Source of the DNA: Planotetraspora mira
GTDB taxonomy: Bacteria > Actinomycetota > Actinomycetes > Streptosporangiales > Streptosporangiaceae
DNA: 64,000 nt
Direction of reading: 5' to 3'
Assembly: GCF_016863275.1 (NCBI RefSeq)
Contig: NZ_BOOO01000002.1
Location: forward strand, 62,001 to 126,000
Shown here: positions 718 to 59,843 of the stretch, piece after piece
Layout: every line of letters starts with the position of its first letter
Position numbering within the stretch: the first letter of the stretch is position 1
Notes under the pieces: model-generated
Seen by the model: only the letters and a program-made list of their open reading frames with translations
Database searches by the model: none
What the model was told of the DNA's origin: nothing
Made by a program: the position numbers and the translations under genes

Positions 718-766
718 ACGGCCCACCCCCCACAAATAAGAATAATGACCACCCCCACCCCCTGCG

Positions 767-978
767 CGTGATCATGCACAGGTTCGGAGAAGTAGGCCCT
801 GACCTGCGCAATCCCCCATCGTGATCATGCACGGATTCGGAGAAACCGGCTCCGACATGCACCGATCCCCGCCGTGATCATGCGCAAGTTCGTGAACCAC
901 TCACCCGACCTGGGCGTACAACAGTCGTGATCATGCACGAGAAGCACGCCGGGCGTCCACGTCTCACTCGTTCATTCC
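767..978 (+). repeat. 53-bp periodic repeat array, forward-oriented half (4 units)
   Basis: Four consecutive 53-bp units start at 767, 820, 873 and 926. Each begins with CGTGATCATGC, so the TGATCA cores lie at 769, 822, 875 and 928, exactly 53 bp apart. Unit 1 contains a near-perfect inverted repeat (TGCACAGGT ... ACCTGCGCA) around an 18-nt loop. Units 3 and 4 are increasingly degenerate outside the core. A C-rich tract (747-766) precedes unit 1. No ORF is credible here. The whole stretch 718-1290 is otherwise non-coding. Confidence 0.9.
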
Positions 979-1229
979 CCATCAGGTACACCACAACGGC
1001 CCGGCTGCATGATCACGCATATCGAATGCGCAGGTCAGCCGGGCCGTCCACGAAGGTGCGCATGATCACGATGGGGGATCGCGCAGGTCGGGGCTTACTT
1101 GTCCGAACCTGCGCATGATCACGACCGGGGTTTGCGCAGGTCAGGGCCCACTTCTCCGAACCTGCGCATGATCACGACCGGGGTTTGGGCACGTCGGACG
1201 GGCCGGACCCGAACCTGTGCATGATCACG
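965..1229 (-). repeat. 53-bp periodic repeat array, reverse-oriented half (5 units)
   Basis: Five units of the same repeat in inverted orientation, each ending CATGATCACG, with TGATCA cores at 1010, 1063, 1116, 1169 and 1222 (again exactly 53 bp). The unit at 1124-1176 is nearly the reverse complement of unit 1 of the forward half and has a perfect 9-bp stem TGCGCAGGT/ACCTGCGCA. The two halves face each other with an 82-bp step between cores at the switch point. A G-rich tract follows the last unit (about 1230-1265), mirroring the C-rich tract on the other side. Confidence 0.9.
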
Positions 1230-3546: not shown

Positions 3547-3966
3547 ATGGACGACATCCGTGAGATCAACCGGAAGACGATCGACGACTTCCGCGCCCAT
3601 GAGGGCGGCGGGCCCTTCGAGGGGCGGCCGATCCTCCTGCTGACCACGCGCGGCCGCAGGACCGGCAAACCGCACACCACCCCGATGATGTACATGAGGG
3701 ACGGCGACACGCTCGTGGTGTTCGCCTCCAACGCGGGCGGTGCCGCCCACACGGACTGGTACCACAACCTCCTCGCCGAGCCCAAGGTCACCGTCGAGAT
3801 CGGGCCGGAGGTGTACATCGCGATCGCCACGGCCACGTCGGGCGCGGAGCGGGAGCGCCTCTGGACGGCCGCCAAGCGGGACTACTCCTTCTTCTCCGAT
3901 CACGAGAAGTCGGCCGCGCCACGTGAGATCCCCGTGATCACCCTGGAGAGGATTCCGGAGATCTGA
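3547..3966 (+). CDS. Deazaflavin (F420)-dependent nitroreductase family protein
   Basis: 139 residues with the Ddn/PF04075 pattern: ILLLTTRGRRTGKPHTTPMMY (split-barrel strand plus basic cofactor loop), then FASNAGGAAHTDWYHNLLAEPKVTVEIG, which is highly typical of F420-dependent quinone or nitro reductases such as mycobacterial Ddn. The family uses reduced F420 to reduce quinones or nitroaromatics. The start at 3547 is the only reasonable one. It follows the patatin gene in the same direction after 52 bp. Its physiological substrate cannot be inferred. Confidence 0.85.
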   Translation: MDDIREINRKTIDDFRAHEGGGPFEGRPILLLTTRGRRTGKPHTTPMMYMRDGDTLVVFASNAGGAAHTDWYHNLLAEPKVTVEIGPEVYIAIATATSGAERERLWTAAKRDYSFFSDHEKSAAPREIPVITLERIPEI

Positions 3967-4043
3967 TCCGTTGAGTACCTGCCCGCCGTAATTCGACGGG
4001 GTACGCGTGTGAGAGGAGGGCGGTCAGGGGTAGCCGACCTCCC

Positions 4044-27296: not shown

Positions 27297-27366
27297 TGCC
27301 CGCCGCGGCGAGGCCGGCTCGGACCACCCGGTCCTGAGCGGCTCCTCGATCACCCGGCGGGTTCCC

Positions 27367-27439
27367 GGCGGGTGAGGGCGCTGGTGTGCCCGGCGGTTTC
27401 ATAAGCCGCTCCGGGCGGGTTCGATTCCCGCACCCGCTA
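27367..27439 (+). tRNA. tRNA-like gene, anticodon CAT
   Basis: 73 nt fold into a full cloverleaf: acceptor GGCGGGT/ACCCGCT, D stem GGGC/GCCC, anticodon stem GCGGT/GCCGC with loop TTCATAA (CAT), T stem GCGGG/CCCGC with TTCGATT, discriminator A. Conserved U8 and A14 are replaced by G. CCA is not encoded. It differs strongly from the CAT tRNA at 12230. Confidence 0.65.
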
Positions 27440-27449
27440 CTCCTTTCAC

Positions 27450-42165: not shown

Positions 42166-43557
42166 CTAGCCGATCTCGACGCTCTCGAGGATGCCGAGAG
42201 CGTCCGGCACCAGGACCGCGGCCGAGTAGTACGTGGTGACCAGGTAGGAGATGATCGCCTTGTCGCTGATGCCCATGAAGCGGACCGACAACCCGGGCTG
42301 GTACTCGTCGGGCAGGCCCGTGCGGTGCAGGCCGATGACGCCCTGCTCGGCCTCGCCCACGCGCATCGCCATGATCGAGCTCAGCCCGCGGTCGCTGACG
42401 GGGATCTTGTTGCACGGCAGGATCGGCACGCCCCGCCAGGCCGGGACCCTGTTCCCGTGCAGCTCGGTGCTCTGCGGGTACAGGCCCCTGCTGTTGCACT
42501 CCCGTGCGAAGGCGGCGATCGCCTTGGGGTGGGCGAGGATGAAGGCCGGTTCCTTCCAGACCTTGGCGAGCAGGCCGTCCATGTCGTCGGGGGTGGGCGG
42601 GCCGGTCCGGGTGTGGATCCGCTGCCCCAGATCCGCGTTGTGCAACAGACCGAACTCACGGTTGTTCACCAACTCGTGCTCCTGCCGCTCCCGCAACGCC
42701 TCAATCGTCAACCGCAACTGCTGCTCGGTCTGATTCATCGGCTCGTTGTACAGATCAGCCACCCGCGAATGCACCCGCAAAATCGTCTGAGCCACACTCA
42801 GCTCATACTCCCGAGGCGACACCTCGTAATCCACGAACGTCCCCGGCAACGTCACCTCCCCCACATGACCCGCCGCCAACTCGATCTCCGCCTCGCCGTG
42901 GGCGTTCGCGGCCCGGTGCGTGCCCGAACGGAGATCCGCGAGATGGGCGCGCAGCTCGGGCGACTGGGCGGCGACGTCCTGGAACGCCTCACGCGTCATG
43001 ATCAGCACCGTGCACGGGGTGATGGCCTTCGCGGTGAAGTCCCAGACCTCCGCTTCCTCGGTCAGGAGTTGCTCGCCGAAGTGGTCGCCGTCCGCCAGGA
43101 CCGCCAGGGTCGTCTCGTGCCCGTACGCACCCGCCCCCAGCTTGTTCACCTTCCCGTGCGCGATCAGGACGACCTGGTCCACCGGGCCGCCGGCGGAGAC
43201 GATCACCTCGTCCGGCTCGATCTCCCGCTGGACGAACCGGCGGGCCAGCGCCGACAGCGCGTCGGTGTCGTCGAAACGCCGCAGGGCCGGCAACTCGCAG
43301 AGCTCGGCCGGGATGACCCTGACCTCCGCACCCGTGGAGACGAACGTGATCCGCCCGTCCCCCACGTCGTAGCTGAGCCGACGGTTCACCCGGTACGCCC
43401 CGCCGACCACCTGCACCCAGGGGAGTACGCGCAGCAGATGCCGTGAGGTGATCTCCTGCATCTGCGGCGCCGACTTGGTCGTCGTCGCCAGGTTCCGCGC
43501 GGCGGCCGTGCCCAGGCTCAGCTGCGACTGCTCGTTCGTGGGAGCTGTTTCGGTCAT
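42166..43557 (-). CDS. Family 2B encapsulin shell protein (shell B)
   Basis: 463 residues with the same architecture as the protein at 38522: [47 protein letters not shown], a cNMP-binding-like insert ([44 protein letters not shown]), then the shell core and [43 protein letters not shown] precedes the ATG. The two shells could form one mixed capsid or two capsids. Three bases separate its stop from the geosmin synthase start. Confidence 0.9.
42583..42886 (-). repeat. 304-bp block identical in both shell genes (copy 2)
   Basis: Partner of 38936-39239. Diverged bases start immediately outside both ends. Encodes residues about 225-325 of shell B. Confidence 0.95.
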
Positions 43558-59723: not shown

Positions 59724-59843
59724 TCATGCATGATCACGAACGGTATCGCCGCAGGTCAACGGCCATTTTCCCGAAAGTATGCATGATCACGGCAGAGAAA
59801 GGCCTGGTCGGGGGACGTTCCCACGAACCTGTGCATGATCACG
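59724..59843 (-). repeat. Second locus of the 53-bp repeat (3 units)
   Basis: TGATCA cores at 59731, 59784 and 59836 (53- and 52-bp steps) in the context TGCATGATCACG, the same unit end as the reverse half of the array at 965-1229. The last unit shares CGAACCTGTGCATGATCACG with the first locus exactly. The units are otherwise more degenerate. Confidence 0.85.

Follow-up and report, generated by a model that had tools for sequence, protein, structure and literature searches.

The window analysed here, a stretch of 64,000 nucleotides (G000:C2:62001-126000) from the 9.03-Mb genome of the soil bacterium Planotetraspora mira (G000), carries near its left end a repeat array between two divergent genes, one for a small membrane protein on the minus strand (289-735, PGPGW-like by eye) and one for a class-III aminotransferase-like protein on the plus strand (1291-2625, also by eye), both of which turn their 5' ends to the array. 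Nine TGATCA cores make up the array, four in a plus half (769, 822, 875 and 928) and five in a minus half (1010, 1063, 1116, 1169 and 1222), with a spacing of 53 bp within both halves and of 82 bp at the switch, exactly as the first-pass annotation had placed them. On the left, an AT-rich block (732-749, minus strand), near-unchanged by eye in three sister species, may be the promoter of the left gene. It is followed on the plus strand by a C-rich, G-poor leader (749-767), a composition that also holds on average over 85 half-arrays of G000, then by three 53-bp units (768-820, with the core GTGATCATGC at 768-777; 821-873; 874-926) and by an innermost plus core (927-936) with neither TTCG nor the second module described below on its 3' side. 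The centre between the facing halves measures 70 bp (937-1006) and has an ortholog in P. silvatica (G022) and P. kaengkrachanensis (G125). Beyond it, on the minus strand, lie the innermost minus core (GCATGATCAC, 1007-1016), three further units (1017-1069, 1070-1122 and 1123-1175), the outermost unit (1176-1228) and the C-rich leader of this half (1229-1265, G-rich on the plus strand), which holds an inverted copy of 749-762 at 1252-1265. The arms 760-839 and 1051-1130 are 85% complementary, and several units of the array share filler because of a recent duplication across the two arms.

The orthologous array comprises 5 plus and 4 minus cores in P. silvatica, 5 plus and 5 minus cores, one of them at another spacing, in P. 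kaengkrachanensis, and only two exact plus cores with a degenerate one between them in P. phitsanulokensis (G104). At the outer edge of the P. kaengkrachanensis ortholog (L128, about 3870-4000), short GTGATCAC-type repeats mark a possible site of array growth. The window harbors a second array of three minus cores, 53 and 52 bp apart (59728-59842), G-rich on the plus strand to its right; it is one-sided and lies about 390 bp before an IclR-like gene (by eye). The 19-mer TGATCATGCRCAGGTTCGG, with up to 3 mismatches, matches the window 9 times vs. 0.02 expected, with 7 of these matches in the array at 769-1222 and 2 in the smaller array at 59728-59842. Other features of the window include a TCGCCC 6-bp tandem repeat at the 3' terminus of the left-hand gene (253-300), a match to Rfam RF02735 (Saccharopolyspora sRNA 350; 43028-43534, 149.8 bits vs. 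a gathering score of 50) and an ARAGORN tRNA of unknown type with a two-base anticodon, adjoining tRNA-Arg and tRNA-His (27356-27440).

Based on 109 units taken from contig C1 of G000, the window and P. kaengkrachanensis, and picked by their exact cores so that the core itself is uninformative, the unit is bipartite, reading cGTGATCATGCRCRGRTTCG, N12, CYGACCTGcgc, NN, ACNC and then variable bases. The words CAGGTTCG and CYGACCTG are inverted half-sites, with a dyad that, by arithmetic, is 21 bp away from the TGATCA dyad on one side and 32 bp away from that on the other, about two and three helical turns. Position 7 of the core is T, though C would finish the palindrome; among 249 internal positions flanked by exact cores, 241 were exact and 8 were variants, 2 of them with C. 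In the nine arrays inspected, most halves have an innermost core with neither TTCG nor the second module. The spacing is rigid in the G000 pieces, with 316 of 352 same-strand core distances of up to 130 bp being exactly 53; distances of 21, 30 and 31 bp occur at array edges, and those of 18-19 and 34-35 bp where an extra core splits a unit. The first-pass annotation had regarded the whole unit as related, a view contradicted by the filler, which agrees between random units at 0.335 vs. 0.334 from column composition, and at 0.357 within a half.

The arrays form a real, genome-wide and conserved system. Defining a pair as TGATCATGC occurring twice within 30-58 bp, we counted 664 pairs in G000 (319 forward and 345 reverse) vs. 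0 for the reversed pattern, nearly all of them 53 bp apart among the matches listed. In 36 pieces of this genome (1.106 Mb, partly chosen for arrays), there were 72 groups of at least 2 cores, 70 of them with at least 3, which contain 335 of the 664 pairs and yield, by extrapolation, about 140 array groups in G000; exact cores in these pieces were grouped in 462 of 472 cases, with 10 solitary. The unselected contig C1 (370 kb) carried 13 groups. A search of related genomes for such core pairs found the arrays dense in Planotetraspora: 23 of 200 sampled family genomes had at least one pair, with dense sets in five genus members (150 to 765 pairs) and in Planotetraspora sp. A-T 1434 (G059; 556 pairs), which falls in another genus in the grouping used, weaker ones in G051 (26) and G186 (15), and single digits in the others. 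By strand, the pairs numbered 345+332 in P. silvatica, 287+314 in P. kaengkrachanensis, 87+63 in P. phitsanulokensis, 277+279 in Planotetraspora sp. A-T 1434 and 15+11 in Streptosporangiaceae bacterium NEAU-GS5; 15 of the 20 named-record genomes, including Acrocarpospora, Microbispora and Microtetraspora, were without pairs. In a phylum sample of 396 genomes, 8 had a pair, and outside the genus only G281, the sole sampled genome of its family (3.1 Mb), was dense, with a unit made of TGATCATGCAATCCCGCCACCC and a C-rich spacer.

The array period is not the same in all of these genomes. Spacing is less strict in G059 (19 distances of 53 bp and 9 of 52 bp), is mostly 41 bp in NEAU-GS5 among the pairs listed, and varies from 23 to 59 bp in G281. 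Thus, the expectation that spacing stays constant while the sequence diverges held within the genus, where we saw no random spacing, and failed in the distant G281; periods tend to whole helical turns, and given G281 this phasing is not universal. Simpler facing palindromes (TGATCATGC..GCATGATCA) occur in 46 of 297 genomes of an order sample and in 36 of 200 family genomes, being numerous in genera g1, g25, g48, g50, g51 and g59; among 20 palindrome loci from other genera, 13 followed a predicted stop codon by no more than 60 bp (by eye). In G025 (L117, L118), the palindrome around TGATCATGC can reach about 67 bp, and changes in one arm are matched in the other. A regulator gene beside the single-copy palindromes of genus g52 was considered and rejected, the neighbour being panB-like in three genomes (by eye). 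Origins outside the chromosome were likewise discounted: 1) none of 62 viral stretches matching the loose pair pattern had an exact 53-bp pair, which speaks against a phage origin, 20 of the 62 having more than 2 cores; 2) plasmid records were unmatched at E 1e-5 and the arrays sit on many contigs beside ordinary genes, which speaks against plasmid iterons or partition sites. Two viral contigs carried repeats of their own, an 18-bp repeat that contains GCATGATCA and is unrelated to the 53-bp unit (L257, 3352-3576) and a 17-bp tandem repeat (L251).

Comparison of species points to selection on the motif. Twelve of the 13 arrays on contig C1 have an ortholog in P. kaengkrachanensis, where there is no array in the place of the 13th. 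Across these 12 orthologous arrays, the motif is 91% identical, the filler 56% and the flanks 81%, against a background of 90% identity in genomic matches longer than 500 bp. Exact-core picking in G000 biases core identity upward; positions 36 and 38 of the second module, which were not used for picking, are 91% and 86% identical between the two genomes. We therefore conclude from the 91% vs. 56% contrast between motif and filler that the motif is under purifying selection. The combination of motif selection and fixed spacing is what a cooperative array would display, and the arrays very probably represent selected protein-binding sites. Accordingly worded, the original suggestion of a cooperative phased binding platform fits best, with the exception of its plasmid-maintenance or segregation variant, which does not agree with dozens of gene-border loci on many contigs. 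A CRISPR-like array, excluded from the outset, or a chance satellite repeat would share the regular spacing and the variable filler; we give this reading practically no credence and consider it refuted by structure and distribution, since a second conserved module lies inside the supposed spacer, the halves face each other, and the arrays recur at dozens of loci with conservation across species.

The position of the arrays relative to genes was surveyed with a home-made gene caller, in intergenic regions of at least 120 bp between predicted genes, with 103 of the 110 half-arrays of the G000 pieces assigned to such regions. A half-array typically consists of a C-rich leader followed by 2-6 cores and points from the gene border into intergenic space. 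All 36 regions with both types of half had the plus half before the minus half, so that they face inward; of the further G000 regions, 29 had one half and one had two minus halves. Two successive minus halves on contig C1 show that the facing rule holds per intergenic region and not along the chromosome. The outer gene points into the array in 68 of 103 halves (toward halves) and away from it in the other 35, where the array abuts a gene 5' end (away halves). Among the 68 toward halves, 14 supply the stop codon of the gene through the TGA of their core and 39 begin 10-40 bp past the stop (median 20); the away halves keep a median distance of 96 bp from the gene, leaving room for a promoter. 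In G000, arrays occupied 23 of the 52 regions between convergent genes, 37 of the 196 between tandem genes and 6 of the 131 between divergent genes, rates that are inflated by the choice of pieces in a manner that leaves the contrast between classes unaffected, and the window array, lying between divergent genes, belongs to the rarest class. On an unselected G125 contig, the corresponding counts were 6/25, 7/78 and 0/46, and in the G059 pieces 6/9, 7/27 and 0/12. Gene adjacency at array places yielded only 3 ortholog pairs between G000 and G059 in the sequence compared. At typA, G000, G022, G125 and G077 have an array at either end of the gene, and G104 and G059 have one only downstream; in NEAU-GS5 one core precedes the gene, and Acrocarpospora has none. 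In 400 kb of the distant G281, 10 of 10 two-sided regions face inward and 5 more are one-sided, with 17 halves starting from a gene 3' end, 8 from a 5' end, and 3 stop codons inside a core; this genome, from a distant family, obeys the same placement rules with another unit.

The sequence that leads into the arrays is biased in composition. Read along its own half up to the outermost core, the leader averages 55% C against 20% G in toward halves (n=52) and 52% C against 18% G in away halves (n=33), after dropping toward halves less than 10 bp and away halves less than 35 bp from the gene. In the first 30 nt past the stop codon, the C/G ratio was 1.97 at array ends (n=77) vs. 1.06 at array-free ends (n=339), and 0.95 where only the opposite gene has an array (n=18). 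Hairpins below -18 kcal/mol within 100 nt past the stop were found at 17 of 77 array ends vs. 212 of 339 array-free ends, and at 14 of the 18 whose array belongs to the opposite gene alone (G000 and G125 pooled, with some orthologs counted twice). Part of this deficit is due to the lower GC content in arrays (mean 0.64 vs. 0.69); with GC restricted to 0.60-0.72, the counts were 17/67 vs. 91/180. Compared with shuffled sequence, array ends show almost no excess of hairpins (median -13.8 shuffled vs. -14.5 and -14.2 observed), against -18.1 shuffled vs. -22.1 (convergent) and -19.2 (tandem) observed at array-free ends. The array sits exactly where the hairpin would. A hairpin with a U-tract, the mark of an intrinsic terminator, was present in at most 6% of any class of ends, and array ends do not qualify as such terminators; C-rich, G-poor and unstructured RNA past the stop is the composition associated with Rho-dependent terminators, a resemblance that is compositional.

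These features of the transcribed strand could also suit an element that works as RNA, in which the transcribed half-array, be it a Rho-loading site, an RNA-protein site or stacked hairpins, stabilises or ends mRNAs and the DNA spacing is incidental. The sense strand is C-rich, with G281 units containing 50% C and 18% G, and in the first 60 of 98 strictly 53-spaced half-arrays the sense RNA folds better than dinucleotide shuffles (mean z -2.37) and better than the antisense RNA (-1.00). However, a candidate stem within the unit showed no covariation over 318 units (z -2.1 to 1.5) and was rejected; the T at core position 7 is kept though C would pair better, C being found in only 2 of the 8 variants among 249 cores; and a fixed 53-nt period is not needed by an RNA. 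The sense z-score, which leaves some likelihood for an RNA role, could come from self-complementary cores that contain a G-U pair. Pairing between facing halves was also discarded, as filler agreement hardly differed between symmetric (0.396) and asymmetric units (0.372). We regard an RNA-level element as distinctly unlikely, and the transcribed hairpin array put forward in the first-pass annotation finds no backing in the covariation of the unit, even though the sense RNA is more structured than its shuffles (mean z -2.4).

With respect to mobility, the arrays change over time. The C30 array of G000 is nearly absent in P. phitsanulokensis, where 489 bp stand opposite only 26 bp; this near-empty site retains two GTGATCACGC words without a clean boundary, and the stop codon of the upstream gene lies inside a core in both genomes (by eye). 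A segment of the same array has 88% identity with a different locus of P. silvatica, and an array of P. kaengkrachanensis contains two identical adjacent units. Taken together, these three observations indicate that arrays grow by duplication, shrink, and are sometimes copied between loci. A REP- or MITE-like repeat, mobile or selfish, lacking host function and kept by copying, would account for the facing ends, for the C30 segment at its other place in G022, for the MITE-like elements with a common interior in G281 and for the palindromic TGATCATGC elements of other genera; it agrees poorly with 12 of 13 C1 arrays at orthologous places under motif selection, and with a near-empty site that keeps two cores and a stop codon instead of presenting a clean target. 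Between nine separated pairs of facing halves lie ordinary genes (TypA, P450, an acetyltransferase, a short Rho and others, by eye), again a poor match to a selfish repeat, with the exception of a transposase fragment (by eye) that one of these intervals also holds. In addition, the RAYT transposase family (PF01797) was unmatched in G000, G022, G125, G104, G059, G051 and G281. It was matched in 7 of 24 genomes, i.e. G077 (4 matches, one with internal stops), G089 (1) and the array-free G003, G027, G203, G209 and G214; G077 bears arrays, G089 bears palindromes and both have TGATCATGC elements. None of four RAYT loci inspected, including that of G089, contained a core. With arrays present in RAYT-free genomes, the system is therefore not REP/RAYT by that test, and the absence of RAYT from G000, G022, G125 and G104, though not from the array-bearing G077, further weakens the selfish reading, which we consider quite improbable. 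Of the earlier proposal of a new mobile repeat, what survives is that arrays grow, shrink and have been copied between loci at least once, and what does not is mobility as the rule, given 12 of 13 arrays at orthologous places. In G281 (L270-L289), TGATCATGCAATCCCGCCACCC end repeats surround the common interior (CAGAATGCTGG..CCAGCA) in a MITE-like fashion and still follow the same gene-border rules. A short second Rho gene (395 aa) lies between arrays (L077 5635-7898, G000:C59); as a trans factor, this paralog was dismissed because array-free genomes have it too and G281 lacks it.

What such binding sites might do at gene borders can be approached from their polarity. We speculate, tentatively and with somewhat less than even confidence, that they are polar transcription-stop and insulation elements, in which protein-bound arrays stand behind a Rho-like leader. 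A sequence-specific protein would bind the GTGATCATGC core, on one face of the helix, and a partner or second domain would bind the inverted CAGGTYCG half-sites on the same face, turning the bound array into a polar roadblock. RNA polymerase leaving the gene, or moving outward from the promoter of the neighbour, would transcribe the C-rich, unstructured leader, on which Rho could load; the polymerase would stall at the bound array and then be released, possibly by Rho. Two facing halves would close the intergenic region from both sides, so that the array might replace a hairpin terminator and insulate neighbouring genes. For the release step there is precedent, as DNA-bound H-NS can trigger Rho-dependent termination according to PMC6797219; the Rho step in our scheme is inferred from composition. 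Support for this polar-stop reading comes from the facing order in 36 of 36 regions, the placement relative to stop codons, the C-rich leader, the fewer hairpins, the selection on the motif, the many exactly spaced pairs, the preference for convergent regions, the same rules in G281 and the presence of arrays at either end of typA in four Planotetraspora genomes. Several findings weigh against it: 1) the 35 halves at gene 5' ends and the window array itself, placed between divergent genes; 2) the half downstream of typA, which is oriented wrongly for halting the transcript of typA; 3) against exact phasing, the variable spacing in G281 and the looser one in G059; 4) the share of the hairpin deficit owed to GC content, and the array taking up the site of the hairpin; 5) the successive minus halves on C1 and the short Rho paralog in array-free genomes. 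Alternatively, the arrays might be a chromosome-structuring platform bound by a nucleoid protein or topoisomerase, which would bridge loci or relieve supercoils at the meeting points of transcription units; gene borders would then be merely tolerated or topologically useful. The 53-bp phasing, the selected motif, the many loci and the enrichment between convergent genes are all compatible with such a platform, and BIMEs, which are reported to bind several proteins, are proposed chromosome organisers (PMC2817692). On its own, however, a structuring platform predicts neither the polarity of the halves, nor the C-rich leader, nor the scarcity of hairpins at array ends, and we judge it rather unlikely.

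Returning to the polar-stop reading, the conservation of the motif suggests a gene-boundary element of an undescribed kind, which may help to stop transcription. A broader version, which we entertain as possible and rather doubtful, is a polar boundary element in which a dedicated, predicted DNA-binding protein occupies GTGATCATGC arrays every five helical turns and replaces hairpin terminators at many genes, and which would have emerged or spread in two or more distant lineages of actinobacteria with unit lengths of 53, 41 and variable bp. To our knowledge, transcription termination is poorly understood in high-GC actinomycetes, where U-tract hairpins are rare, and a genome with polar selected arrays at many gene ends and hairpins at others would constitute a natural experiment on termination. 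If a protein binds every five turns, this would be an unusual bacterial system, phased and insulator-like across the genome, and since the distant G281 shows the facing and stop-codon rules as well, they may reflect a general principle. A published description was not found in the titles and abstract beginnings searched, which does not in itself establish its absence from print.

Among known systems, the Sal boxes bound by TTF-I in mammalian rDNA are repeated polar protein sites downstream of genes that act as orientation-dependent terminators. The Planotetraspora arrays resemble them in placing repeated polar sites 3' of genes and differ in that Sal boxes are eukaryotic and confined to rDNA. 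DNA uptake sequences are short conserved words found genome-wide, with inverted pairs after genes; unlike these, the cores in the G000 pieces are grouped (462/472) with a long fixed spacing. We know of no Rho-dependent terminator with a phased binding array or facing halves. The likeness to Rho-dependent terminators with roadblocks (PMC6797219) lies in RNA that is C-rich, G-poor and less structured, with a putative DNA-bound block beyond it. Mycobacterial MIRUs are intergenic tandem repeats, with 77- and 53-bp units at ETR-D/MIRU04, and the units of one locus are described as copies that differ by few bases (PMC2453075). The Planotetraspora arrays share with them the intergenic tandem layout and a similar unit length, and copy number does vary between species; their units are not the near-identical tandem copies of a MIRU/VNTR locus, as filler agreement is at chance level (0.357 within a half vs. 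0.335 at random), with the motif alone kept and the halves facing. REP sequences occur in many extragenic copies, mostly between convergent or same-direction genes, and are defined as palindromes of 20-40 bp ending in GTAG or CGTC (PMC3733652), and REP/BIME elements bind proteins, with proposed roles in chromosome organisation and termination (PMC2817692). Like these, the Planotetraspora arrays are extragenic and present in many copies, with 60 of the 66 array-bearing regions of G000 convergent or tandem; unlike them, they are built on a 53-bp unit consensus that lacks a GTAG or CGTC end and is not one hairpin of 20-40 bp, and their halves are homopolar, facing and set at a fixed 53-bp period. 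Phased facing arrays match no interspersed extragenic element known to us, and we class them with this group because the simple palindromes of related genera link the arrays to it.
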